This document shows positions 1,778 through 21,084 of a stretch of 24,883 nt of DNA, piece by piece. The stretch is taken from the IMG/VR virus record IMGVR_UViG_3300034190_003745, positions 1 to 24,883 of that record. The stretch is one strand, 5' to 3'. The stretch comes from a virus. Positions within the stretch are counted from its first letter, which is position 1. Every line of letters starts with the position of its first letter. Both the position numbers and the translations under genes were made by a program. The notes under the pieces were generated by a model that was not told the origin of the DNA, ran no database searches, and saw only the letters and a list, made by a program, of their open reading frames with translations.

Positions 1778-2539
1778 ATGTCTAAAGCAGTTTTCATTTC
1801 CGATCTTCACTTGGCATCCAAAAAGTCAAAGGGGGATTGCATACATGAATTTCTCAAAGATTTGAAAACTGAAGATCTCTACATGGTTGGTGATGTCATC
1901 GACATTTGGAGATTTCAACAAGCATTTTCGATGGGACCGATTAAACAACAGGAGACAGTCAAGTGTTTTGATCGCCTTCTGAGACTCTCCAAAAAAACAA
2001 ACGTACACTACATTTGGGGAAACCATGACGAATTCATGTCAAGATTTGCTGATTCTTCTGGGTTTGGTAACATCACACTGGCGGAGCGTAAAGACTACAT
2101 TTCAAGCGATGGTAAGAGATATCTCGTCCTTCATGGTCATCAGTTCGATCTTCTTGCAAAATATGCCTGGTCGCCTTGGTTGGGTAAAGTAGGTGATATC
2201 GGTTACGATATTATGATCGAAATTAACGAATGGTATAACTGGTTTCGACGGAAGATTGGTTTAAGGTATTGGTCGTTGTCCAAGTATATCAAAGTCAAGT
2301 TCAAGACAGCAGTGGTGTTCATGGATCGTTTTGAAAAGATTACAACCGATTATGCAAAGAAAAATGGTTACGACGGAGTGATTTGTGGTCACATTCATGA
2401 TCCTCAAGATAAGACTGTAAATGATGTTCATTATCTCAACTGTGGATGCTGGACAGACGAAGAAAACCTCACTTACATCGTAGATGACGAGAATGGAATT
2501 AGACTAGAATATGCAAAAAAGAATACTCATAGTAAGTGA
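1778..2539 (+). CDS. plcP: Metallophosphoesterase of the COG2908 family, probable phospholipase PlcP
   Basis: A 253-residue calcineurin-type metallophosphoesterase. Metal-binding motifs are all present: DLH (D9, H11), GDVID (from 38), GNHDE (from 81), HGH (119-121) and GHIH (204-207). The central segment with the RRKIGLRYWSLSKYIK pattern and the FEKITTDYAKKNGYDGVICG lead-in to GHIH matches the COG2908 group, annotated as UDP-2,3-diacylglucosamine diphosphatase (LpxH-like), which also contains PlcP. PlcP cleaves phospholipids to diacylglycerol under phosphate starvation in Sinorhizobium and marine bacteria. The downstream glycosyltransferase overlaps by 29 bases, the same pairing as host plcP-agt operons, so I prefer PlcP over an LpxH lipid A role. 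The start follows SD GGAGGAAGAG and replaces an upstream TTG. No signal peptide, so it is cytosolic or peripheral to the inner membrane. Enzyme class is firm; substrate is inferred. Confidence 0.75.
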   Translation: MSKAVFISDLHLASKKSKGDCIHEFLKDLKTEDLYMVGDVIDIWRFQQAFSMGPIKQQETVKCFDRLLRLSKKTNVHYIWGNHDEFMSRFADSSGFGNITLAERKDYISSDGKRYLVLHGHQFDLLAKYAWSPWLGKVGDIGYDIMIEINEWYNWFRRKIGLRYWSLSKYIKVKFKTAVVFMDRFEKITTDYAKKNGYDGVICGHIHDPQDKTVNDVHYLNCGCWTDEENLTYIVDDENGIRLEYAKKNTHSK

Positions 2540-3524
2540 CGCATGGAAACCACAAGTCAACGGTGTCGTAACGACCCTTACAAATGTCTCTGAAAAACTG
2601 AGAGAGATGGGACATGATGTTCGCGTTGTCTCTCCAGAGGATTGCTCCTTTCGGTTTCGTGTGCCGTTTTACCCAGAGATTCGTCTTGGGTGGCCTAAGA
2701 AACGAGTCATGGAAAATCTACTCCACGACTTTCAACCAAACCATATTCACATCTCAACACCAGAGGGTCCGTTGGGTCGGTGCTGGAGGAAGTTGTGCAA
2801 AAAATATAGACTAAACTACACAACGGCATACCACACCAAGTTTCCAGAGTTTGTAAAGTCAATAACGAAGGTGATTCCAGTCTTTTTCGGACATATGTTC
2901 ATGAGGTATGTGAATAAGCATTCCTCTTGCATTATGGTTCCGACTGGAAGTATGATTGATGAACTCAAAGAAAGAGGATATGAAAATGTGAAACTTTGGG
3001 GTAGGGGGTATGACGAAGAAATCTTCGGTCCAGTAAAAAGAGTCCCACAACAAAATGATCCACCCAGACTTCTTTGTGTTTCTCGAATTTCTGCTGAGAA
3101 GAATCTCGAAGATTTCTTTGAACTAGATGTGCGGGGCGACAAGATCATGGTGGGTGATGGACCTGAACGAAAGAAGTATGAAAAAAGATATCCCGATGTT
3201 ACCTTCGTTGGATTTAAGAAGGGGATGGAATTGGCGAGTTACTACCAAAATGCGGATGTCTTTGTTTTTCCATCGAAGAAAGACACTTTTGGTGTTGTCA
3301 TGATCGAGTCTCTTGCCTGTGGAACTCCAATCGCTGGATACGATGTGACAGGTCCGAAGGACATTGTAATCAATGGTTACAACGGATTTATTGGAAACGA
3401 TCTAAAAACGAATGTCATAAAGTGTCTTGACATAGATCGTGATATGGTGTATCGTTCTAGCTCCAGTTATTCTTGGACGGGTTCAGCAAATCAATTTTTA
3501 AATAATTTAGTAGGAATAATTTGA
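2511..3524 (+). CDS. agt: GT4 glycosyltransferase, probable diacylglycerol glycosyltransferase Agt
   Basis: A 337-residue retaining GT-B glycosyltransferase of family GT4, close to the SQD2/MgtA/Agt branch. Visible motifs: an N-terminal loop SDAWKPQVNGVVTTLTN (9-25), HISTPEGPLG (80-89), YHTKFPEF (107-114), the SRISAEKNLE donor-site loop with R192 and K197, VGDGPER (214-220), and the nucleotide-sugar site around DTFGVVMIESLACGTP with the conserved Glu at 266. It starts inside the phosphoesterase gene and ends in TGATG with thyX, so translation is coupled in both directions. Agt enzymes transfer a sugar from a nucleotide donor to the diacylglycerol that PlcP produces, making phosphorus-free glycolipids. 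Acceptor and sugar cannot be read from sequence; an LPS-modifying enzyme is the main alternative. Confidence 0.75.
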   Translation: MQKRILIVSDAWKPQVNGVVTTLTNVSEKLREMGHDVRVVSPEDCSFRFRVPFYPEIRLGWPKKRVMENLLHDFQPNHIHISTPEGPLGRCWRKLCKKYRLNYTTAYHTKFPEFVKSITKVIPVFFGHMFMRYVNKHSSCIMVPTGSMIDELKERGYENVKLWGRGYDEEIFGPVKRVPQQNDPPRLLCVSRISAEKNLEDFFELDVRGDKIMVGDGPERKKYEKRYPDVTFVGFKKGMELASYYQNADVFVFPSKKDTFGVVMIESLACGTPIAGYDVTGPKDIVINGYNGFIGNDLKTNVIKCLDIDRDMVYRSSSSYSWTGSANQFLNNLVGII

Positions 3525-4252
3525 TGCAAAAAAAAGTTTTGGATAAAGGTTTTGTTGACTACATTGATCACATGGGATCTGATGTTACCGTGTGTAACGC
3601 AGCGAGAGTTTCCTTTTCTAAGGATACTGATTGGGAGATTGATGAAAAAGCGGTCGCTCGTCTTGAACAGTCTGGATCATCTTATCATAAAGAGGATGTT
3701 CGTAAGTTAGGTGAACGAGATCAAAAACTTATTCAGTATCTTGCAAAGCACCAACACTGGACACCGTTCGCGCACCCGCAGATCACTCTTCGGATCAAGG
3801 CACCAGTTTCGATTCGAACGCAGTTTTTCAAGCACAAGCAAGGATTCGTGGAAAATGAAATCAGTCGTCGCTATGTTTCCTTTGAGCCGGACTTTTATTA
3901 TCCAGAGTGGAGAGGAAAGCCCGTTAACGGAGCAAAGCAGGGTAGCGAACACTTCATCAAAATTCACAAGGACATGGAAAAACAATACAACAGTTCTGTT
4001 CGTGTCGCTCTTTACACCTATGAGCAACTTCTAGAGGAGGGTGTTGCACCCGAACAAGCACGTTTCATTCTCCCACAGGCGATGTACACGGAGTGGTACT
4101 GGACAGGATCTCTTGCTGCATTCGCTAGGTTCTACTCCCAAAGAATCGAAGAACACGCTCAGTGGGAAATTCGTGAATATGCAAAAGCGATCGGTGAAAT
4201 AATTTCACCATATTTTAAAGAATCTTGGAAAGCACTGACTCAGTGCCATTGA
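3524..4252 (+). CDS. thyX: Flavin-dependent thymidylate synthase ThyX
   Basis: Makes dTMP from dUMP using methylene-tetrahydrofolate, FAD and NADPH, for phage DNA synthesis. The 242-residue protein has the ThyX signature in a variant form: RTQFFKHKQGFVENEISRRY (98-117), where the usual RHR is KHK but the downstream NE-x-S-x-RY is kept. HQHWTPFAHP (76-85) and the helix with PEQARFILPQAMYTEWYWTG are also typical of the family. The ATG at 3524 overlaps the glycosyltransferase TGA (TGATG) and is preferred over the TTG one codon upstream. It is followed by nrdJ after 40 bases, forming a deoxynucleotide-supply pair. The KHK-type motif occurs in other phage ThyX proteins as far as I recall, so I do not read it as inactivating. 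Confidence 0.95.
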   Translation: MQKKVLDKGFVDYIDHMGSDVTVCNAARVSFSKDTDWEIDEKAVARLEQSGSSYHKEDVRKLGERDQKLIQYLAKHQHWTPFAHPQITLRIKAPVSIRTQFFKHKQGFVENEISRRYVSFEPDFYYPEWRGKPVNGAKQGSEHFIKIHKDMEKQYNSSVRVALYTYEQLLEEGVAPEQARFILPQAMYTEWYWTGSLAAFARFYSQRIEEHAQWEIREYAKAIGEIISPYFKESWKALTQCH

Positions 4253-4292: not shown

Positions 4293-6242
4293 ATGGAATT
4301 ACCGTCTTTATATCAATCTTTTATACATCTTTCGCGTTACTCTCGTTGGTTGGACGATAAGGGGCGTAGAGAAACGTGGAGTGAAACAGTTGCACGGTAT
4401 TTCGATTTCTTCGAAACGCATCTAAAGGAGGAATGCAATTACGAGGTTCCTACAGAACTTCGCACAGAGTTGGAGTCTGCGGTTCTTAATCTTGAAATTA
4501 TGCCGTCTATGCGCGCACTGATGACCGCAGGGGAAGCATTAAGGAGAGACAACGTTGCAGGGTACAACTGCTCCTATGTCAGTGCAAACAAACCTAAGTC
4601 GTTTGATGAGATTCTGTACATCCTCATGTGCGGAACAGGAGTCGGCTTTAGTGTCGAACGAGAATTCATCAAAACCCTGCCGACCATAGCAGAGGAGTTC
4701 GAAGACAGTGATACAACGATTATTGTCCAAGATTCAAAGATGGGTTGGGCGAAAGCCTATAGAGAACTGTTTAGCCTTCTCATTGGAGGTCAAGTTCCAA
4801 AATGGGACACGAGCAAAGTTCGTCCTGCCGGCGCACGCCTTAAGACTTTTGGAGGAAGAGCATCCGGACCCGAGCCGCTCGAAGACCTCTTCCGCTTCAC
4901 AGTTGACACTTTCCGAAAAGCAGCGGGTAGAAAACTTACTTCTATCGAATGTCACGATATCATCTGCAAAATTGCGGAGATTGTCGTTGTCGGGGGTGTT
5001 CGAAGATCGGCACTGATCTCTCTTTCCTCGCTCACGGATGAGCGTATGAGAGATGCAAAGAGTGGTGCTTGGTGGGAAGCAGATCCCCAGCGAGCACTTG
5101 CAAATAACTCTGTCGCTTACAAAGAGAAGCCAGAGCCAGGTATCTTCATGGAAGAATGGCTTTCTCTTTACAAGTCAAAGAGTGGTGAGCGTGGTATCTT
5201 TAACCGAGATGCTGCACAGAAGCAAATTGAAAAGGCGAATGACTTTAGAAAGCAACTGAACCCAGAGTATCGTATGCGTGAATCTGAGTTTGATTTTGGA
5301 ACTAATCCATGCTCAGAAATTATTCTTCGAGATAAAGAATTTTGTAACCTAACTGAAGTTGTTGTTCGTTCTGATGACACCGAGGAGTCTCTACGGAGGA
5401 AGGTGCGTCTTGCCACCATTCTTGGCACTTGGCAGTCAACTCTTATCAACTTCAAGTATCTTTCGGGAGACTGGAAGAAGAACTGCGAAGATGAGAGACT
5501 ACTTGGTGTTTCCATGACTGGTATCATGGATTCAAAGGTAACACGAGAACTTAAAGGTTTGGATCTAAAATTAAGAACGTTCAAGTCTATTGCGATTGAA
5601 ACCAATAAGGAACACGCCGATATTCTCGGTATTCCGCAGAGTGCAGCAATCACTTGTGTGAAGCCTTCTGGAACAGTCTCTCAGTTAACCGATGCTGCTT
5701 CCGGTATTCACGCTCGTCATAGTCAGTTCTATGTCCGCACCGTTCGTGCTGACAACAAGGATCCTCTGTGCGAATTTATGAAGAGATGCGGTTTCCCACA
5801 TGAAGCCGATGTCATGAAGCCAGAGCATGTTACCGTGTTCTCATTCCCCGTGAAGTCACCAAAGGGATGTGTTACTCGTAATGACATGACTGCTATTGAG
5901 CAGTTAGAACTTTGGCTTACATACCAACGCTATTGGTGCGAACATAAGCCTTCTGTAACAATCACTGTTCGTGAGGAGGAGTGGCCATTGGTGGGTGGAT
6001 GGGTATATGATCACTTTGATGAGATTTCTGGTATTTCATTCCTTCCGCACAGTGATCACTCTTATCGACAAGCACCTTATCAGGAGTGCGGAGAAGCAGA
6101 GTATAAAGAATTACTTAAGTCTCTACCAACGGATGTTGACTGGACTGGACTTGGTGATTACGAAAAAGAGGACAATACGTCAGGAACTCAGACATTCGCC
6201 TGCTCTGGTGACTCATGTGAAGTAGTCGATTTAACGAAATGA
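4293..6242 (+). CDS. nrdJ: Class II (adenosylcobalamin-dependent) ribonucleotide reductase, monomeric
   Basis: Reduces ribonucleotides to deoxyribonucleotides with adenosylcobalamin as radical source, independent of oxygen. At 649 residues it is somewhat shorter than the Lactobacillus leichmannii monomeric enzyme. Motifs: YNCSY with the substrate-reducing Cys93, GTGVGFS (114-120), the active-site loop TNPCSEI with thiyl Cys340 and Glu342, the second redox Cys at 351 (FCNLTE), a KPSGTVS phosphate-binding loop, and a C-terminal cysteine pair C637/C642 (CSGDSC) spaced as in the leichmannii enzyme for thioredoxin regeneration. No ATP-cone and no partner NrdB gene is seen. The start is fixed by SD TAGGAG upstream of 4293. 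It needs B12 from the host, which may relate to the CobS-like gene at the right end. Confidence 0.95.
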   Translation: MELPSLYQSFIHLSRYSRWLDDKGRRETWSETVARYFDFFETHLKEECNYEVPTELRTELESAVLNLEIMPSMRALMTAGEALRRDNVAGYNCSYVSANKPKSFDEILYILMCGTGVGFSVEREFIKTLPTIAEEFEDSDTTIIVQDSKMGWAKAYRELFSLLIGGQVPKWDTSKVRPAGARLKTFGGRASGPEPLEDLFRFTVDTFRKAAGRKLTSIECHDIICKIAEIVVVGGVRRSALISLSSLTDERMRDAKSGAWWEADPQRALANNSVAYKEKPEPGIFMEEWLSLYKSKSGERGIFNRDAAQKQIEKANDFRKQLNPEYRMRESEFDFGTNPCSEIILRDKEFCNLTEVVVRSDDTEESLRRKVRLATILGTWQSTLINFKYLSGDWKKNCEDERLLGVSMTGIMDSKVTRELKGLDLKLRTFKSIAIETNKEHADILGIPQSAAITCVKPSGTVSQLTDAASGIHARHSQFYVRTVRADNKDPLCEFMKRCGFPHEADVMKPEHVTVFSFPVKSPKGCVTRNDMTAIEQLELWLTYQRYWCEHKPSVTITVREEEWPLVGGWVYDHFDEISGISFLPHSDHSYRQAPYQECGEAEYKELLKSLPTDVDWTGLGDYEKEDNTSGTQTFACSGDSCEVVDLTK

Positions 6243-8216: not shown

Positions 8217-8590
8217 TTTATGACCTCCAGTTTTTTTAAGATTCTACTATCCAAACTGACGTAATTTAGGTTAACTTCCGGTATGGAATTTGGAAGGTAT
8301 TTTAGATAAAAAAGAAATGTTTTCAGATAGGAATGGTGATTAGGATCTACGTTAAAAAATAACATTCTAGTGCAAAATTCAGTTCCAAATAAATTGTTTA
8401 AAACTATTATGTGATTAAGTATTAAACGTTCTCTTAGTTCCCCTGATTTCTCGTACTTACTGAACAATCTTTTTATGTATTTAATACGATTTAAATCCTC
8501 TTGAAATTCATCCATGCTTTGACATGCAGGATTTTCATAGGTTTTTATCGCCATCATAAAGAAGTTTTGTTCAGTAAGTTTTATTGTCAT
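8213..8590 (-). CDS. Conserved T4-like phage protein (DUF7207-type)
   Basis: A 125-residue, mostly helical protein with FFMMAIKTYENPACQSMDEF and DLNRIKYIKRLFSKYEKSGE, followed by LRERLILNHIIVLNNLFG. This pattern is widely shared among T4-like marine phages, where it is annotated as a small hypothetical protein next to structural genes. It is ATGA-coupled at both ends, so it is made together with its neighbours. No enzymatic motif, signal peptide or membrane segment. The N-terminal MTIKLTE is followed by Q, which would fit a prohead-protease site, but the segment is too short to argue for capsid targeting. Confidence 0.75.
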   Translation of the reverse strand: MTIKLTEQNFFMMAIKTYENPACQSMDEFQEDLNRIKYIKRLFSKYEKSGELRERLILNHIIVLNNLFGTEFCTRMLFFNVDPNHHSYLKTFLFYLKYLPNSIPEVNLNYVSLDSRILKKLEVIK

Positions 8591-9168
8591 TTTTCATATG
8601 ATGTAAATGATTCGAGAGTGTCTTTTTCTTTCTTCTCTGATTTGCCTGGATGAAGTTCTTTTGAGTCTTTCTTTTCGTCGTTTTCTACATCAAAGGATGT
8701 TGTCTCTACAATTTTTGCATCAACTTTATAGAGACCGTTTGGGACATCAATCATGTTGATATTTAATGCGTAAGACTTTCCTTCTTCAAATCCATCAGTA
8801 ACTTCGAATTCATTGTGAGGTGTTGTTGGAGATTTTCCGAAAGTTCCACCGAACTTATAAAGTCTGTATGATGTGCTTCCATCCTCTAGGTTTTCTGCCA
8901 TATCAATCTTAAAGTCAAGTCCTGCGATGTTCAACTTTGCTCTAAGCATTCCAAGAGCAGCTCTTGGATCAAGAAATTCTTTTTGTGTGAATGCGTTTAC
9001 GAATGCGTTCAATCTCTTGAGTTGCGCGGGACTTTCTGTTCTGTATATCCCGGCATCACTGTGCGCAGATCGACCGTAACTGTCGCTGGGATCTCCGTTT
9101 CCGAAGCCACCACCGAATCCGTACTCGCTCTCATTAATTTTTTGCAATAGTTCGTTGTAAGTTTTCAT
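8587..9168 (-). CDS. Probable capsid-targeted internal head protein
   Basis: A 193-residue protein whose N-terminus MKTYNELLQKINE closely resembles the T4 capsid-targeting sequence MKTYQEFIAE of internal proteins IPI-IPIII, followed by an (I/L)xE-type cleavage point (INE before SEYGFGG). The rest has a Gly-rich stretch (GFGGGFGNG), HSDAGIYRTESPAQLKRLN (36-54), a folded mid-part (PRAALGMLRAKLNIAGLDF) and a charged tail rich in Lys and Glu. The mid-part is familiar from marine phage hypothetical proteins. SD TAGGAG lies upstream of the ATG. I infer encapsidation and gp21-type processing from the N-terminus; the mature function is unknown. Confidence 0.75.
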   Translation of the reverse strand: MKTYNELLQKINESEYGFGGGFGNGDPSDSYGRSAHSDAGIYRTESPAQLKRLNAFVNAFTQKEFLDPRAALGMLRAKLNIAGLDFKIDMAENLEDGSTSYRLYKFGGTFGKSPTTPHNEFEVTDGFEEGKSYALNINMIDVPNGLYKVDAKIVETTSFDVENDEKKDSKELHPGKSEKKEKDTLESFTSYEK

Positions 9169-9187: not shown

Positions 9188-10642
9188 TTAGCCTTTCTTC
9201 CATCCGCCGCCCTTGGACTTGTACCATTTGGCAGCCCATCCATTGGCATATGCGCTTGGATAAACATCGAATTTTTGTTTTGCTAGTGATTTTGCTCTCG
9301 ACCAGAGGGAAGGATTTGTTGGAACGTTTTTCTCTTCTAATTCCTGTCCATCTGGTTCGAAGTGACTCTTGAGAGTGGCACCATTTGTCTTTGGGTTGTA
9401 CTTATACTCTGATGGTTTTCTCCCGGATCTCTTTGCAGCGCGATCCTTTGCTCTGCCTGCAGCACCCATTGACTGTCTCTTTTCACCGTGCTTGGTGAGT
9501 TCCCTGGTTCCAGGTTTAAATGATCCGGATTTTTGGAGTTGTGCTGTTGCAGTTGCATGTGCCCTGTCCTTGGACATGCCTCTGGCAAGAAGTTGGGAAA
9601 CTAGACGATCGTAAAGTTTTCCTTCTTTTATATCTTCACCCTCACCACTTTCCATGTAATCAGAGGCTGTATCAATATAATCTGCTGCCTTAGTGATTTT
9701 GGACTGAACCCATGCTTCTAATTGTCCCTCTCCCTGGACTTTTTTCATTAACTTTTCCACTGCCTTTTTAATCGTGGAAAGTTGTGATCTTGCCATAGAG
9801 TGCTCGTGATCCTTTTCGGATTTTTCTGAAATCTCTTCGCCATGATCGGGTGTGAAATTATCTTCAACCTTTGCACCGGCTCTCCATTGTCTGCACGACC
9901 AGTATCTTGCTTTTGTTTTAGGACCTGGATTATCACAATTGTGTCTTGCACGGAAGTTCGATCTTCTTTCGGGATCGTCTCTTTTAATTTCCATATTTGG
10001 ATCACCAAAGCGAACTGTTTTAACATTGCCGGTTGATGGATCCTTAACCTTAACCATAAATTTTTTGGGGCCCCCAGGAGTTCTTTGAACTTTACCGAGT
10101 GGGCCTTCTTTTTCATTTAATTGTTCTTCGTGAACATTGTAGATGTTCTCTTGGGTGGCGTATTCTAGAACTTCGTTTCCGTTATGATCTGAAAGAACGA
10201 GTAATTTTAGACCATTTGATATGTCTTCAATTTTTTCAACGGTGTATTTGTATCCGTGGTTTTTAATAATTGTCAATCCCTCTTTTATTTCGGAGAGGGG
10301 AAGTTCTACTATCTTTTTCATTACGCTTTCCTCAGTTTTTTTAATCTTGTTTGAAACCATGATGGGAGCACCACCTTTACCCGCCCGGTCGGCTACGGGA
10401 TCCTGCTCTCTTTTTCTGCGGACAGCAGCTGCTATTTTCTTTTTTCCGCCCTGTGCTCGTAATTTTGCTGCTTTTTCTCGTGAGAGACATTTTGGTTTAC
10501 CTTCACCCGGACCTCTTGCACATTTACCAATTCTCTCCCCTTTGGTGTTGTAACGATCCCAACCGCCACCACCAACGCCGCCCTTGCCGCCGGTTCCAAA
10601 CCATTTTCTTAAATCTTCTGATATGGGATCTTTTTCAGTCAT
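9188..10642 (-). CDS. Basic modular protein with DUF5872-like module and repeated (I/L)xE sites
   Basis: A 484-residue, highly basic protein built from modules that occur separately in other phages. Residues 13-100 hold a Gly-rich WFGTGGKGGVGGGGWDRY module with two Cys (41, 52) and RRKRE, of the DUF5872-like type. Residues 178-258 are basic with Cys at 236 and 250 (RARHNCDNPGPKTKARYWSC). Residues 278-332 are helical (HSMARSQLSTIKKA). Residues 341-425 form another basic helical module, and 440-484 a tail with YPSAYANGWAAKWYKSKG. Between modules stand prohead-protease-like sites: ISE (7-9), LSEIKE (116-121), LNE (175-177), ISE (271-273), IKE (338-340) and LEE (435-437). The start overlaps the upstream membrane protein gene. 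I read it as a DNA-binding internal head precursor; this is inference. Confidence 0.7.
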   Translation of the reverse strand: MTEKDPISEDLRKWFGTGGKGGVGGGGWDRYNTKGERIGKCARGPGEGKPKCLSREKAAKLRAQGGKKKIAAAVRRKREQDPVADRAGKGGAPIMVSNKIKKTEESVMKKIVELPLSEIKEGLTIIKNHGYKYTVEKIEDISNGLKLLVLSDHNGNEVLEYATQENIYNVHEEQLNEKEGPLGKVQRTPGGPKKFMVKVKDPSTGNVKTVRFGDPNMEIKRDDPERRSNFRARHNCDNPGPKTKARYWSCRQWRAGAKVEDNFTPDHGEEISEKSEKDHEHSMARSQLSTIKKAVEKLMKKVQGEGQLEAWVQSKITKAADYIDTASDYMESGEGEDIKEGKLYDRLVSQLLARGMSKDRAHATATAQLQKSGSFKPGTRELTKHGEKRQSMGAAGRAKDRAAKRSGRKPSEYKYNPKTNGATLKSHFEPDGQELEEKNVPTNPSLWSRAKSLAKQKFDVYPSAYANGWAAKWYKSKGGGWKKG

Positions 10643-10901
10643 TTTGTTCTAACGCTCTTCTTATCCAAAGTAGATCTGTTTTAATTTCTGCGAGATCTGT
10701 CATTAGTGTGGCACGAAATGCCTCGCTTGTGTCTAATCTGGAATCTAAAGTTTCTAAATTTCTTTCTATAAATTCTAATTTTGTTTCGTAAGTTGCATCT
10801 TTTTGTGCAACAAACCAAACTGTTGATCCAAAGGTGATCGCAAAGCCAAGAATCGCGCTCATAATAGAAATGGTGGCACTAGTCTTCGCCGTAGCAGTCA
10901 T
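10635..10901 (-). CDS. Small membrane-anchored coiled-coil protein
   Basis: An 88-residue protein with one N-terminal membrane segment (about 12-32, ISIMSAILGFAITFGSTVWF) followed by a heptad-like coiled coil (KLEFIERNLETLDSRLDTSE and on to the C-terminus). The topology would leave the coiled coil on one face of the inner membrane. An inner-membrane spanin (Rz-like) shape is possible, especially with a lipoprotein gene in the same operon, but it is short and far from that gene. Its ATG overlaps the upstream stop (TAATG) after SD AGGAGACG, and its end overlaps the next gene by 8 bases. Function unknown. Confidence 0.65.
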   Translation of the reverse strand: MTATAKTSATISIMSAILGFAITFGSTVWFVAQKDATYETKLEFIERNLETLDSRLDTSEAFRATLMTDLAEIKTDLLWIRRALEQND

Positions 10902-13465
10902 TATCGTCTCCTTTTAGACACAATATGTTGTTTTTTCTGACCGGGCGTACCCTCTATGTAGGTTTTTAATAATTCATCAGTTCCCTCAAACCCAGCTCCA
11001 TATTCCTCGCCGATTCGATGCTTGTTATCCGCTCTGTTTTGACTTCTATCCCTCGCCCTTAGATTAGAATCGCCATTATTAAGTGCATTTCCATCTTTAT
11101 GATCCACATCTTGGTGGGGTTTTACTTTACCACTTTTGACCATTCTTCTTCTAGCCAAAACTCTATTTGATCTCTTTTTTCTTTGCTCTGGTTTTCCATG
11201 AAACGTCTCGTATTCGTGCTTATAGTCTCGCTTTGATGGATCATCCTGTTCAAACACCAAGTTAAAAGACTCGTTAACCCCATCTTCTTCCTCCGTGTAG
11301 AAGGTGTCTTCGAAGTCGGGTTTCTCTGGTAAAACCGGTACTTTCTTCTTTTTCCCGTTGATTGTTATGATATTCATTCTGCCCTCTTCGGGTGCGTCTT
11401 CAATAATATTACCACTGACAGATATATCCAGTCCTCTTGAGATTTCCCTTAAAATCTGCTCTGGGTTCTTGCCGTAAAAGTCACCAAGAAGTTCTGGTGT
11501 GTAAATGAAAGCGGTGTCTCCGTTCATTTTGACTTTTGGTTTGTTTGCCTCTGCGAGTTCGATATTTTTCCCTTTGAGTTCGAACCTGAAAGTCGGTTGG
11601 GTTATTTTTCCCCTGCTCTTGGATCGGATTCCGACGTAAGTTTTTGGCATCACGCTTGTGATATAATCCCCATCTGACTCGCCTATTTCTTCGAACCCTG
11701 CTGGACTGAGAAGATGTGTTGCCGCTGCCTCTGGATTGTCCTCGAATGCTCTTCTCCCAGTGAGTGCTTCGTGAACCAATTCTCTCTTAAACTCTTCACT
11801 TTCTGATAAAAACTTAACAAACTCGTCCTGAATGTTCTTTGTCACAGTTCCAGAATAGTTTTGCCAATTGTACTTGTCCTTAAGGTTTCCGTTCTTATCA
11901 AACATCTCTTCAAACCAAGGTTTTCCGCCGTGTCTATCCTTTGCCTCTTCAATATGCTTTGGATCTAACATCTTGTTTGGAAGTGATCTTAGAGATTTAG
12001 CAACATTTTTTGCAGCATTCTGCATAACTTCCTGATCTTGAGCGCCGACGATCGCAGAGAGGTTCTCAAGCGTTTTGGCGGTTGTCTGTGCGCTTTCACT
12101 TGACAGTTGAATGTTACCATTCATTTTAAGAGATATTTTATTGTCCCCGCATATCAAATCTGTTTTTGGTTCCGGTCTTCCAGAAATCCCCACCTCGTCG
12201 GAGTGCTTGAGTTGTCCTTTGCACTCGTCTGGTATGTGCTTTACTGCGGTTTTGGCCATGTCAAAAACATCTTTTCTAAAAGCAGTTAGATTTTGACCTG
12301 CCATATCGTTTCTTTTTGATAATTGCTCGTCTGTTGCGCCCGCAGCCTTAGCGGCAAGATAAGTGACAGCCCACTCAAACTGGACGCCTCTACCCTGAGT
12401 GATTTCCTTCGACGGACCTGGGTATTGAATTGTGTCTATGTTCTGTGCGGGGCCTGCCGGTGTAAACGGATCCAGAGCATCATATTCTGCTTGGGCTTGG
12501 GCTTGAGCTTCTGCGTCTGCATCTTGTTGCATCTGTTCCGTATCAGAATCAGAGGGCATTTTTTCTTCCGTTTCTTTCTTTCTTTTTTCTGCCTCTTTTT
12601 CTGTGTCTCTCTGTGATTCGACATCTTTCATCATATCAGAAAGATCACCAAAAACTTCCATTGAAGTTGGAGTTTGCTTAAATTTTTGTTGTCTAATCGC
12701 ACCCTCAACGTCAGTCATCGTTGGTTTTGGTTTATCTGGACCGCCCTTAAGAACAGTGTCATCATTGGGGTCAGGTCGAACTACCACCTCTATTTCGCCG
12801 CCCTTTCTTTTTTGAATGAGATACAGATCGGGAGGTAAATATTTGGCTGCTTCGTTTAATAATTCCGGATTGTTCATAAATTCCTCAAATTCCTCGTAAT
12901 TGAACCAATCTAAAGATTCCATGTGAGATGACAGAGTGGAGTGCATTTTCTTTGCATCGGAATGGGAAACATGCTTTGGAAGCATTGTCTTGAATGATGT
13001 GAGTCCCGCCTTTGCTCTTTTTCTTGTTTCTGTCCCGGATGCTCTTTCTACGGGATCATGGGAGTCTGGATCTCTGTGACCAGCGGAAACAATAGAAACA
13101 GATTTTAGTCCGGAGTGTTTCTTCAGGGCGTCTGCTTTTTTATTCATCTCTGCGTGCCGATCTGATCCTACGATCAAAGTTGCGTGTTGATATCCACTTT
13201 TTGCAGCGTGCTCTGCCGCATGAAACATGCTTTTAACTTCTGGATGAGAAACTACGTTATGTCCTCTAAGAACTTTTTTTGCAAACCCTTGCTTCACGTC
13301 CGGCGGCAATGGATTTTTTTTGCCATCATGAGTTTGACTCAAATAGATTGCGTGATCACCCCCGACTTTTTTGGCATGAGATCTTACCGCGTCTGCTAGT
13401 TTTAGATGTCCCGCGTGTGGGGGGTTCATTCTACCGAATGCGAATACAAGGTGTTTATTTGCCAT
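10901..13465 (-). CDS. Fusion of NMNAT-like nucleotidyltransferase, PD-(D/E)XK-like domain and HNH nuclease
   Basis: An 854-residue protein. Residues 1-180 form a cytidylyl/NMN-adenylyltransferase-like domain: FGRMNPPHAGH with the HxGH motif at 17-20, LSQTHDGKKNPLP, IVGSDR (98-103) and the SAGHRDPDS and GTETRKRAK region. After a helical stretch with an LNE site (203-205, before AAKYLPP) comes an acidic, Gln/Glu-rich linker (about 280-335). The next domain has FEWAVTYLAA (Glu364) and PKTDLICGDNKISLK (Asp436, Lys447), a PD-(D/E)XK-like pattern. The C-terminus (about 745-815) is an HNH domain: RRRMVKSGKVKPHQDVDHKD then GNALNNGDSNLRARDRSQN. I use the ATG at 13465 (SD GGTGGAG) over a GTG five codons upstream. 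It is the first gene of the late operon. The nucleotidyltransferase and HNH calls are firmer than the middle one. Confidence 0.8.
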   Translation of the reverse strand: MANKHLVFAFGRMNPPHAGHLKLADAVRSHAKKVGGDHAIYLSQTHDGKKNPLPPDVKQGFAKKVLRGHNVVSHPEVKSMFHAAEHAAKSGYQHATLIVGSDRHAEMNKKADALKKHSGLKSVSIVSAGHRDPDSHDPVERASGTETRKRAKAGLTSFKTMLPKHVSHSDAKKMHSTLSSHMESLDWFNYEEFEEFMNNPELLNEAAKYLPPDLYLIQKRKGGEIEVVVRPDPNDDTVLKGGPDKPKPTMTDVEGAIRQQKFKQTPTSMEVFGDLSDMMKDVESQRDTEKEAEKRKKETEEKMPSDSDTEQMQQDADAEAQAQAQAEYDALDPFTPAGPAQNIDTIQYPGPSKEITQGRGVQFEWAVTYLAAKAAGATDEQLSKRNDMAGQNLTAFRKDVFDMAKTAVKHIPDECKGQLKHSDEVGISGRPEPKTDLICGDNKISLKMNGNIQLSSESAQTTAKTLENLSAIVGAQDQEVMQNAAKNVAKSLRSLPNKMLDPKHIEEAKDRHGGKPWFEEMFDKNGNLKDKYNWQNYSGTVTKNIQDEFVKFLSESEEFKRELVHEALTGRRAFEDNPEAAATHLLSPAGFEEIGESDGDYITSVMPKTYVGIRSKSRGKITQPTFRFELKGKNIELAEANKPKVKMNGDTAFIYTPELLGDFYGKNPEQILREISRGLDISVSGNIIEDAPEEGRMNIITINGKKKKVPVLPEKPDFEDTFYTEEEDGVNESFNLVFEQDDPSKRDYKHEYETFHGKPEQRKKRSNRVLARRRMVKSGKVKPHQDVDHKDGNALNNGDSNLRARDRSQNRADNKHRIGEEYGAGFEGTDELLKTYIEGTPGQKKQHIVSKRRR

Positions 13466-13491: not shown

Positions 13492-13523
13492 AAAAAAACG
13501 AGAGGAGTTCTAGAACTCCTCTC
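13492..13523 (-). terminator. Rho-independent terminator ending the 15212-13593 unit
   Basis: On the minus strand an 11-bp stem (GAGAGGAGTTC and GAACTCCTCTC, 13500-13523) is followed by C/G and seven U residues (13498-13492). It closes the transcript that carries the exonuclease and NUMOD1-like genes and the anti-16S element. Confidence 0.8.
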
Positions 13524-15577: not shown

Positions 15578-16720
15578 ATGAAAACATTTACAAAATTTCT
15601 GACGGAACAAACTAAAAAACCAAAAGTAGAGACAACAGGTCATCTTGCACATGCAGGAGATTTTTTGTACTATGGAAATCCAGATCACGCCATTCACCAC
15701 CACGAAAAAATGTTTGATCGTCTTCACAATAACACAGAGGATCCAGATCACCCAATATCCTTGAAGGTAGATGGTGGTATGAGTTTTCTCATGGGTAAAG
15801 ATGAATCGGGAAAGCCTTTCGTATCCTACAAATCAGCGAAACAAAAGTTTTATAGTGCAAAAGACATTCTTGCAACTGGAAAGCCTCATTATGAAAAACT
15901 TTTGATCCCTGCATTGTATGCCACTCGAAAAATGAAATCCATGCCTGCTGGGACTGCCATTCAAGCCGATCACTTGTTTGATGATCGACCCTCGAAGGAC
16001 AATTATACTTCAAATACCATACCATATTCATCCCCTGGAAAAAGTCATTCCTTCGGATTTGCCCCGCATTCCCAGTATGATGTCAGGGGGAGTGATCTCA
16101 TAAAAGTTTCAAACGAACCAGATCACTCGCATTTTCCGAAGGATCATGTTTACGCACCGAAGTTATCGTTTGGTGGTAAAAAATTCACTCCGATGAGCGA
16201 TGATAGAGTTCAAAAAATTCAACAAAGTATTGGAACGGCGAAGGCGATATTGAATGACGAAGGCCTGAAAACATTTGCATCCACTCTTCCTGATGACAAA
16301 AAATTTCATTCGGCACTACAGGGATACTCTAATCATGTTGCAAGAACTTCTGGTGTTCGATCCACTGATGATCTGATCCAACACGTTCAGAAACATGTTA
16401 ACAGAAGAAAAGTTAGTGATAGACTGAAACAAAAAGAATTAGAATCTCACACACAGAAAATAGAGGATAATCGACAGCATTTCGATGCACTCTTTTCCGC
16501 CCACAACAACCTCACAAATGCTAAACATGAAATGACGGGACATCTGAAAGATCATCACGATCTCTTTGACATTCGTCCCCACCGAGATGAGGAGCATGAG
16601 GGTATTGTTGCTACGTCAAACTCAACAGGCACAACAGCCAAGTTTGTCCCAGAGGGTCCAGATGGTTTTGCCGCAAAGAACGCAGCAAGATCAGCAGAAC
16701 TTAGATCAAAAGGTAGGTAA
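15578..16720 (+). CDS. DUF6267-like protein with KxDG ligase-type motif and capsid-targeting N-terminus
   Basis: A 380-residue protein. It starts MKTFTKFLTE, a near copy of the T4 capsid-targeting sequence with an LxE cleavage point before QTKKPK. GHLAHAGDFLYYG and the helix after it resemble DUF6267 proteins of marine phages. SLKVDGGMSF places Lys63 in a KxDG motif like motif I of nucleotidyltransferase-fold DNA and RNA ligases, followed by GKPFVSYKSAKQKF and, near 128-150, TAIQADHLFDD and SNTIPYSSP, all in the order seen in DUF6267. The second half is His- and Lys-rich and helical. The ATG at 15578 is preceded by a weak GGGG SD. Adenylation activity is a hypothesis; the family call is from memory of its motif pattern. 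Confidence 0.7.
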   Translation: MKTFTKFLTEQTKKPKVETTGHLAHAGDFLYYGNPDHAIHHHEKMFDRLHNNTEDPDHPISLKVDGGMSFLMGKDESGKPFVSYKSAKQKFYSAKDILATGKPHYEKLLIPALYATRKMKSMPAGTAIQADHLFDDRPSKDNYTSNTIPYSSPGKSHSFGFAPHSQYDVRGSDLIKVSNEPDHSHFPKDHVYAPKLSFGGKKFTPMSDDRVQKIQQSIGTAKAILNDEGLKTFASTLPDDKKFHSALQGYSNHVARTSGVRSTDDLIQHVQKHVNRRKVSDRLKQKELESHTQKIEDNRQHFDALFSAHNNLTNAKHEMTGHLKDHHDLFDIRPHRDEEHEGIVATSNSTGTTAKFVPEGPDGFAAKNAARSAELRSKGR

Positions 16721-18935: not shown

Positions 18936-19196
18936 TTAGTTTTCATCTCTTTTGCGATCTTCTTCTTCTTTTCTCTTGGCGCCAAATTTGAGGGTTGCGC
19001 CTCCCTCTTCTCTTGACTTTTCGCAAATAGCAGCAGCTTCTTTTTCGCTCATTTCTTTACCATCTCGTTTGGCTTCTGCTTTTACTTTTGAAATGCAATC
19101 ATGAAAAGTGTCGTCTGCTTGTCCTGGCTCTTCTTTGGAACTGAAGTGCTTCGGTGCTTCTTCTAATTTGTTTAGAAACTTTTTAAATGTGTCCAT
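18936..19196 (-). CDS. Small charged protein with CTS-like N-terminus, internal head protein candidate
   Basis: An 86-residue, highly charged protein. MDTFKKFLNKLEE then APKHF resembles the T4 capsid-targeting peptide (MKTYQEFIAE then A), with a cleavage point at LEE before Ala. The rest (DDTFHDCISKVKAEAKRDGK, KEAAAICEKSREEGG) has two Cys and a helical pattern seen in small phage proteins with a D/H-x-C-V-x-K-V motif. The C-terminus is a Lys/Arg/Glu/Asp run. SD TGAGGAAAA precedes the ATG. It lies in a six-gene minus-strand unit with structural-type proteins. Encapsidation is inferred from the N-terminus. Confidence 0.7.
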   Translation of the reverse strand: MDTFKKFLNKLEEAPKHFSSKEEPGQADDTFHDCISKVKAEAKRDGKEMSEKEAAAICEKSREEGGATLKFGAKRKEEEDRKRDEN

Positions 19197-19754: not shown

Positions 19755-19909
19755 CAATCACTTCTTTTTTGTAGTAAAAATTGTTGCTCTTGGATTTGTT
19801 GCTCTGTTAAAATTCTACCACTATTTACGCATTTCCATGCGTTTAATTTAGCAACATACTCGTATCGCATTCCTTCAATGACTCTTGTTTGTCCGTCAGC
19901 GTAAAACAT
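19754..19909 (-). CDS. Small unknown protein, first gene of its unit
   Basis: A 51-residue protein starting MFYADGQTRVIEGMRYEYVA and ending with a Gln-rich helix (LTEQQIQEQQFLLQKR). The ATG at 19909 has SD CGGAGATCC; an in-frame start 22 codons upstream would read through the divergent promoter region and is rejected. One Cys (residue 29) and a Trp suggest a small folded beta domain before the helix. It is TGATG-coupled to the structural-type gene 19317, which suggests a shared role. Family not recognised. Confidence 0.6.
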   Translation of the reverse strand: MFYADGQTRVIEGMRYEYVAKLNAWKCVNSGRILTEQQIQEQQFLLQKRSD

Positions 19910-19950
19910 AGGGATCTCCGTTACGATTATACAATGATATATATCAATCT

Positions 19951-19958
19951 TATACATA
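19951..19958 (+). promoter_or_regulatory. Late-promoter-like box TATACATA in the divergent region
   Basis: TATACATA within CTTATACATAA, 17 nt before the ATG at 19976. The 66-base divergent region 19910-19975 also has a TGATATATATCA palindrome near 19935-19946, but no perfect TATAAATA box for the minus-strand unit. Confidence 0.4.
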
Positions 19959-19975
19959 AGAGGCGGAGAACACAC

Positions 19976-20662
19976 ATGAACAAATACGCTTTTAACGTTT
20001 TCTTAGAGAAACAAAAACTTGATGAGGCTCCCAGGGAGCGCATGACTGGTGCATCGGAAAATCCACAAGGACTTACCAGATCTCGAATGAGAAGAATTGA
20101 ATTGGCAAAGAAGCAAGCACCTGAGATCGAAGCAAAAATTAAAAGATTGAAGGGTCAGGCTGCTGGTGATCCCGCAAAGATGGCTGCTCTTCAAAAGAAA
20201 ATAGACGTGACACGAAAGCAAATATCAAATCCTGCAAATCTAAAAAGTCCTCAAGGGGAACTTAGACGACAGAGACTTGCAAAAGCAGAAAAGTTAAAAG
20301 CAAGAGGCGGGAAAGGAAGCGTTATTGATAAAGCAATGGCTGCAATTAGCAAGCGAGTGAGAGCAGTTGACACGCCACAAAATAGAGAAAGACTAAAGAG
20401 ACTCGGCCGAGCCGGTCTTGAGTACGCTAAAACTGGGGCTTTCTCTGGACAATTTGGAAGAGAAATGAAAGCAAGAGGTGTCGGATCCGGTGTTCAATAC
20501 AAGAGTGCGCTAGGAGCGTTGAAGGGTGGAGCATCCACTCAGATAATCGGGACTGGAGCAGAGACCGGTTCGAAAACCAGATCATCTGATCCACTAGCAG
20601 GACTTGATCCGGTAGAGAAAAGAAGAGCAAGAATGGCCGGCGCTGCTGGTCCGGTTGGATGA
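19976..20662 (+). CDS. Basic protein with CTS-like N-terminus, internal DNA-binding head protein candidate
   Basis: A 228-residue protein very rich in Lys, Arg, Ala and Gln. MNKYAFNVFLEKQKLDE then APRERMTG looks like a capsid-targeting peptide with an LDE cleavage point before Ala. The body is mainly basic helix (LTRSRMRRIELAKKQAPEIE, AALQKKIDVTRKQI, GELRRQRLAKAEKLKARGG), then Gly-rich segments (GGKGSV, GVGSGVQYK). No catalytic motif. The start has SD GGCGGAG; the in-frame ORF extends upstream but through the divergent promoter region. The composition matches T4 internal proteins that are packed with and injected with DNA. Inference. Confidence 0.75.
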   Translation: MNKYAFNVFLEKQKLDEAPRERMTGASENPQGLTRSRMRRIELAKKQAPEIEAKIKRLKGQAAGDPAKMAALQKKIDVTRKQISNPANLKSPQGELRRQRLAKAEKLKARGGKGSVIDKAMAAISKRVRAVDTPQNRERLKRLGRAGLEYAKTGAFSGQFGREMKARGVGSGVQYKSALGALKGGASTQIIGTGAETGSKTRSSDPLAGLDPVEKRRARMAGAAGPVG

Positions 20663-20664
20663 TT

Positions 20665-20672
20665 TATAAATA
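20665..20672 (+). promoter_or_regulatory. T4-type late promoter box
   Basis: A perfect TATAAATA two bases after the stop of the 19976 gene and 26 nt before the ATG at 20699; SD AATAAGGAAA lies between. Confidence 0.7.
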
Positions 20673-21076: not shown

Positions 21077-21084
21077 TATAAATA
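21077..21084 (+). promoter_or_regulatory. T4-type late promoter box
   Basis: A perfect TATAAATA that directly continues the T-run of the terminator, 22 nt before the ATG at 21107, with SD ACAGGAGAAAA in the leader. Confidence 0.7.

Follow-up and report, generated by a model that had tools for sequence, protein, structure and literature searches.

A conserved viral fusion of NMNAT-like, PD-(D/E)XK-like and HNH domains with a capsid-targeting-like peptide at the join

Results

The fusion gene and its expression signals

The window analysed here is the whole of a 24,883-nucleotide stretch of viral DNA (IMG/VR record IMGVR_UViG_3300034190_003745, positions 1 to 24,883); related loci in other viral contigs are referred to by L numbers. 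On its minus strand lies a gene for an 854-residue protein in which the NMNAT-like, nuclease-like and HNH domains proposed in a preliminary description are all found, as predicted from the sequence. A terminator hairpin, a T4 late promoter core (TATAAATA) and the ATG follow one another ahead of the gene.

10901..13465, minus strand: whole gene, 854 amino acids, ATG start at 13465, supported by the same-layout homologues L011, L012 and L092
13483..13490, minus strand: T4-type late promoter TATAAATA, recognised by octamer enrichment within the window
13492..13523, minus strand: intrinsic-terminator-like hairpin GAGAGGAGTT-CTAG-AACTCCTCTC followed by a T run, closing the upstream unit (z -2.9)
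1751-1758, 20665-20672 and 21077-21084, plus strand: three other TATAAATA late-promoter cores, just 5' of predicted starts

The placement of the gene at 10901-13465 in the preliminary description is correct once it is taken as minus strand, the plus strand there being crowded with stops. The mechanically called open reading frame is longer by five codons, and its GTG start sits on the promoter/SD stretch. The late promoter that had been suggested ahead of the 854-residue gene is present at 13490-13483 and its octamer is enriched in the window, with 4 copies against 0.68 expected, a count reached in 0 of 100 shuffles; by inspection, all four copies lie directly 5' of predicted gene starts.

The NMNAT-like domain

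12911..13465, minus strand: HxGH nucleotidyltransferase (NMNAT-like) domain, residues 1-185, from PHROG 3041/395, the NCBIfam cyt_tran_rel and NMNAT models, and alignment
13406..13417, minus strand: HAGH motif, residues 17-20, from the homologue alignment
13022..13039, minus strand: SGTETR, the second nucleotide-binding motif (ISxTxxR type), residues 143-148, from the alignment

Residues 1-185 match PHROG 3041 (E=3e-39) and PHROG 395 (E=3e-28), both labelled 'cytidyltransferase', and the NCBIfam models place the family nearest to NMN/NaMN-type adenylyltransferases. HAGH occupies residues 17-20, where an HxGH nucleotidyltransferase motif had been reported, and is joined by SGTETR at 143-148, so that both motifs of the HxGH nucleotidyltransferase superfamily are found, in what would be a Rossmann-like domain. 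Residues around the two motifs are kept in 24 homologues of this part, across which S143 and R148 are invariant; the first His of HxGH is Thr in most separate NMNAT-like relatives. Because the domain scores 18.6 bits with the curated NMNAT model TIGR00482, far under the cut-off of 112.45, it is named 'NMNAT-like' only.

The targeting-like peptide and the small module

12851..12907, minus strand: capsid-targeting-like peptide WFNYEEFEEFMNNPELLNE, residues 187-205, with a candidate protease site after E205; motif shared with homologues
12611..12847, minus strand: conserved small module, residues 207-285 (KYLPPDLYLIQKRKGGEIEVVVRPDP...FKQTPTS...FGDLS), from homologue comparison
12431..12610, minus strand: low-complexity acidic/Q-rich linker, residues 286-345, from composition

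LNE is indeed found at 203-205, and the targeting-like peptide with a protease-type site that had been proposed between the NMNAT-like and nuclease parts is conserved in homologues: the cut-site triplet at the join is LNE in the window and L011, LDE in L012 and IQE in L092, and LxE is lost in L019. F..F[LIVM] followed by LxE at the observed spacing arises in 0.95% of shuffles of the fusion protein. An N-terminal peptide with an (L/I)xE site, as in a T4-type CTS, is not what the window protein has, its LNE peptide being internal.

In fusions that include the NMNAT part, the peptide motif is found at residues 182-197 by ORF numbering. Its pattern WF....F..[FY][LMA], confined among 6825 ORFs to the fusion's own protein family, falls near residue 190 where the NMNAT part is present and at residues 7-8 of L094, L096 and L098. 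These three are without that part and have a degenerate nuclease, but the small module and the HNH domain are common to them and the fusions. Since the internal peptide of the window matches the N-terminus of these nuclease-HNH relatives, the NMNAT part appears to have been added in front, and the simplest history would be the joining of an NMNAT-like domain ahead of a targeting-peptide/nuclease/HNH protein. The preliminary description had the peptide exposed internally by processing; its internal position stands, but an ancestral targeting peptide, once N-terminal and since capped by the added domain, is the better reading. Among separate NMNAT-like proteins, F..F[LIVM].E occurs within the first 30 residues in 52 of 56 (shuffled expectation 0.04), and it opens 0 of 60 nuclease proteins. 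The small module has a dN/dS of about 0.04 against L011, and the linker is the least conserved part in the same comparison (54% identity).

The nuclease-like domain

11576..12400, minus strand: PD-(D/E)XK-like nuclease domain, residues 356-630, with active-site candidates E364, D436, K447 and Q453, from PHROG 22045
L166 1898-4267, L167 1880-4267 and L097 1469-4366: members of the same layout with lost catalytic residues

Residues 356-630 match PHROG 22045 (E=2e-31), whose annotated function is unknown. E364, D436 and K447 are located as the preliminary description had them, and an alignment of 29 diverse proteins (the window's and 28 homologues, with identity down to about 20%) has G360, E364, EPKTD (432-436), S445, K447, Q453 and S456 invariant. 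The third motif reads SLK, Ser replacing the acidic residue of (D/E)xK; Ser in the third PD-(D/E)XK motif is known from restriction enzymes of the Cfr10I type. Motif invariance suggests that residues 356-630 are PD-(D/E)XK-like. The family profile gave no convincing match to PDB sequences or Pfam, its comparison with a Cas4-like exonuclease encoded in the window was not significant, and a scan of bacterial genomes found no relative of the nuclease. The nuclease lysine is lost in L166 and L167, and both the HxGH and nuclease motifs in L097, the layout being kept in all three; these degenerate sites may reflect structural reuse.

The HNH domain and the C-terminal tail

11246..11275, minus strand: second targeting/cleavage-like stretch NESFNLVFEQ ahead of the HNH domain, residues 731-740, from homologues
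11015..11242, minus strand: HNH domain, residues 742-817 (core DVDHKDGNALNNGDSNLRARDRSQNRADN), from PHROG, Pfam and relatives
10904..11014, minus strand: C-terminal tail GAGFEGTDELLKTYIEGTPGQ, common to L019 (without HNH) and a separate NMNAT-like protein of L117

The HNH part matches PHROG 4590 (E=7e-12, function unknown), PHROG 4578 (HNH, E=1e-4) and Pfam HNH_3 (E=4e-4), the last at 20.5 bits, below the gathering score of 24.8. The D-H...N...N catalytic pattern is present as DVDHKDGNALNNGDSNLRARDRSQN, and its DH, NL and final N are invariant in relatives; the domain is of the DHxDG..NN type, clear against phage relatives though weak in Pfam. At the position of NESFNLVFEQ the triplets are LFE in L011, LAE in L012 and LLE in L019. 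The tail, GAGxEGTxxLLxxYxxxTPGQ, is common to the fusions and one separate NMNAT-like protein (L117 6208-7242).

The product of the next gene but one downstream (9188-10642, minus strand) contains LVSQLLARGMSKDRAHATATAQLQKSG...KPSEYKYNPKTN, which resembles a stretch within the L117 small HNH protein (3701-4228) and suggests an exchange of late modules between such proteins. Examined by eye, free HNH genes had no single neighbourhood context.

Distribution and selection

The NMNAT-nuclease-HNH layout recurs in L011 (71% identity), L012 (54%) and L092 (43%); L019 is an NMNAT-nuclease fusion without HNH, and L097 a degenerate member. An assembly artefact is ruled out, as the fusion recurs at these identities in contigs from other metagenomes. 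No phage record spans 80% of the fusion protein. Between the window and L011 all domains are under purifying selection: dN/dS is about 0.04-0.17 for the parts with a measurable dS, and in those with a saturated dS, pN is much lower than pS.

The gene cassette and DUF6267

15578..16720, plus strand: DUF6267 protein with the N-terminal targeting-like peptide MKTFTKFLTEQ, a cassette member in relatives, from Pfam PF19782 (E=5e-18) and synteny

With the nuclease domain alone as query, 80 loci were found in viral contigs, 58 of them with room to judge the neighbourhood. A separate NMNAT-like gene lies no more than 2.2 kb downstream of the nuclease in 54 of these, the two parts are fused in 3, and 1 is without an NMNAT-like gene. 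The preliminary description had called the combination unusual, which holds for the fusion and fails for the neighbourhood, the parts being adjacent genes in many T4-like marine viruses; they are rarer as a fusion than as gene neighbours. DUF6267 is found near 18 of the 55 unfused nuclease loci, often between the nuclease and NMNAT-like genes, and also near the fusions of the window, L171, L173 and L019; in the window and two other fusion contigs its gene is on the strand opposite to the fusion. The isolates S-RIM50, DSL-LC02 and S-RS29 have the row nuclease, DUF6267, NMNAT-like. In S-SM1 the row is nuclease, T4-GC 71 hypothetical protein, NMNAT-like, where T4-GC 71 is DUF6267-like by position and size. 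The cyanophage cassette sits among replication genes (gp43, uvsX, gp41 and mazG, then gp61 and nrdA), and the surroundings in the window are likewise of replication type, with primase genes, ThyX and a ribonucleotide reductase.

In DUF6267 proteins of the window, L006, L007, L026, L045 and L079, three motifs stand at constant positions: KxDG, EG further along, and KxV. They resemble motifs I, IV and V of the covalent nucleotidyltransferases, or ligases. A comparison of the DUF6267 profile with a single sequence, T4 RNA ligase 2, was not significant, so the possible ligase reading comes from the motifs.

Other genes of the window

Small predicted proteins with targeting-like N-termini are encoded at 18936-19196 (minus strand, MDTFKKFLNKLEEA), 8587-9168 (minus strand, MKTYNELLQKINES) and 19889-20662 (plus strand, MNKYAFNVFLEKQKLDEA), and candidate head proteins are plentiful in the window. 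By eye, 1766-2539 and 2511-3524 (plus strand) encode a calcineurin-like phosphoesterase beside a GT4-type glycosyltransferase, between the primase and ThyX genes, possibly an envelope or sugar modification pair. The B12-dependent ribonucleotide reductase at 4293-6242 (plus strand) shares 63-65% identity with enzymes from phages of Rhizobium, Roseobacter and Puniceispirillum, a hint that the host may be an alphaproteobacterium.

Discussion

The gene described here encodes a real, well-conserved fusion of a known virion-associated enzyme with a nuclease partner. Published mass spectrometry detected the NMNAT-like protein T4-GC190 in purified virions of S-SM1 (PMC3037559), and NMNAT-like proteins in those of S-SCSM1 (PMC9602691) and S-CREM2 (PMC10665884), in both latter cases with the authors' caution of co-purification. 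In T4, the CTS carries foreign proteins, nucleases included, into heads and onward into the host (PMC9026906; PMC3012670), and is removed by gp21 (PMC9026906; PMC7411985; PMC3012670).

That the parts are fused, with a head-targeting-like peptide at the join, suggests that they ride in the virus head and act together. We give an even chance to the reading in which a T4-like marine myovirus makes this fusion of the virion enzyme and a nuclease-HNH partner as a late head protein, targeted to the head and probably cleaved and injected. The fusion would have originated when an NMNAT-like domain was joined ahead of a protein composed of targeting peptide, small module, nuclease and HNH. The targeting-like peptide at 187-205 would bring it into the prohead core, where the prohead protease would probably cut after E205, parting the NMNAT-like enzyme from the nuclease-HNH part. 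Both parts would then enter the host with the DNA and act at the start of infection, the former on NAD or a related dinucleotide in the host, the latter by cutting DNA, either that of the host or incoming DNA ends. The DUF6267 protein, which would be packaged separately, would work beside them. That the window protein is packaged, cut, injected and active in any of these ways is what we infer here; the virion data from relatives speak to presence only. The observed domain layout, late promoter, conservation, purifying selection and cassette count in favour of the packaged, cleaved fusion. Against it count the N-terminal position of T4 CTS peptides, as opposed to the internal one in the window, the degenerate catalytic sites of L097 and L166/L167, and the chance that the published virion detections may represent co-purified protein. 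Active nucleases packed alongside the genome also need restraint.

L097 and L166/L167 have lost catalytic residues but retain the layout, which leaves room for a purely structural role, in which the protein would be a head-assembly or DNA-organising component, its enzyme folds serving as binding modules, packaged but inactive as an injected enzyme. Conservation through most members of the non-catalytic modules (207-285, VNGxxxxIPV and the C-terminal tail) fits such a role, but every candidate nuclease catalytic residue is kept in the window and 28 further homologues and the window keeps both nucleotide-binding motifs, and we regard it as unlikely. We regard as unlikely to the same degree a cytosolic late or middle enzyme of NAD and DNA metabolism, with the peptide as an acidic linker helix of an unpackaged protein: the cassette lies among replication genes in cyanophages, as in the window, and L019 is without LxE at the join, whereas the window peptide is homologous to N-terminal peptides of relatives, and F..F[LIVM].E opens nearly all separate NMNAT-like relatives, some of which have been found in virions.

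The identity of single parts can also be questioned. The 'nuclease' might be another enzyme or binding fold with a coincidental E/D/K pattern, as the Ser in the acidic position of (D/E)xK and the failure of the profile to match any Pfam family, PDB sequence or, significantly, the Cas4-like exonuclease would allow. The invariant residues of the 29 proteins nevertheless stand in the usual PD-(D/E)XK order, with E in a helical-looking N-terminal stretch, D of KTD, then K of SxK, which in the window comes 11 residues later, and Q/S directly after it, and coincidence seems quite improbable. Very unlikely, in our judgement, is an HNH domain that hitch-hikes on a late protein as a mobile or homing-type endonuclease with no functional role. 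Free genes of 73-84 aa with this HNH type are common, L117 has the domain joined to a late module of another kind, unrelated to the fusion, and L019 retains the C-terminal tail without it, but HNH stays beside the nuclease across large sequence distances in the window, L011, L012, L092, L094, L096, L098, L097, L166 and L167.

A broader and rather unlikely proposal extends the packaged, cleaved fusion to its neighbours. The NMNAT-like protein, DUF6267, the PD-(D/E)XK-like family (not previously described as such, under this same proposal) and HNH would form one virion-delivered set for nucleic-acid and NAD processing, in which trimming would fall to the nucleases, sealing to the ligase-like protein and the remaking of NAD to the NMNAT-like enzyme. 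The window fusion would then be a pre-assembled version that the prohead protease splits.

Among cyanophage proteins the NMNAT-like protein belongs to the core and is virion-associated, and the fusion and the conserved gene order link the nuclease and DUF6267 to it as specific partners. The fusion is also an example of how multi-enzyme proteins of the head may be put together around a targeting peptide in T4-like viruses.

Comparison with known systems

The likeness we propose to T4 IPI-III and Alt lies in CTS head-targeting, cutting by gp21 after a glutamate motif and ejection into the host, with Alt engaged in NAD chemistry. No sequence relation to the window fusion was seen, the CTS is N-terminal in the T4 proteins, and we know of no nuclease domains in IPI-III or Alt. 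The NARP phage NAD reconstitution enzymes (Namat/Nampt/NMNAT) would share phage-coded NAD-salvage-type chemistry with the fusion if the window part is an NMNAT, whereas a phosphoribosyltransferase partner was not noticed in an untargeted look through the window's predicted proteins. The phage HNH family (PHROG 4590/4578, Pfam HNH_3) shares the core DHxDG..NN...NL....N and is usually a free protein, unlike the fused HNH of the window. The cyanophage 'cytitidyltransferase'/NMNAT-like T4-GC190 (PHROG 395/3041) has the same HxGH-type domain as the fusion, but its relatives are separate proteins of roughly 290-490 aa with the peptide N-terminal, whereas in the window the domain is fused ahead of nuclease and HNH and the peptide is internal. 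PHROG 22045 (T4-GC 1453 of S-SM1) has the same nuclease-like domain with the invariant E...EPKTD...SxK...Q; its members are free proteins (about 270-280 aa) whose genes lie upstream of the NMNAT-like gene, whereas in the window the order is reversed and the two are fused.
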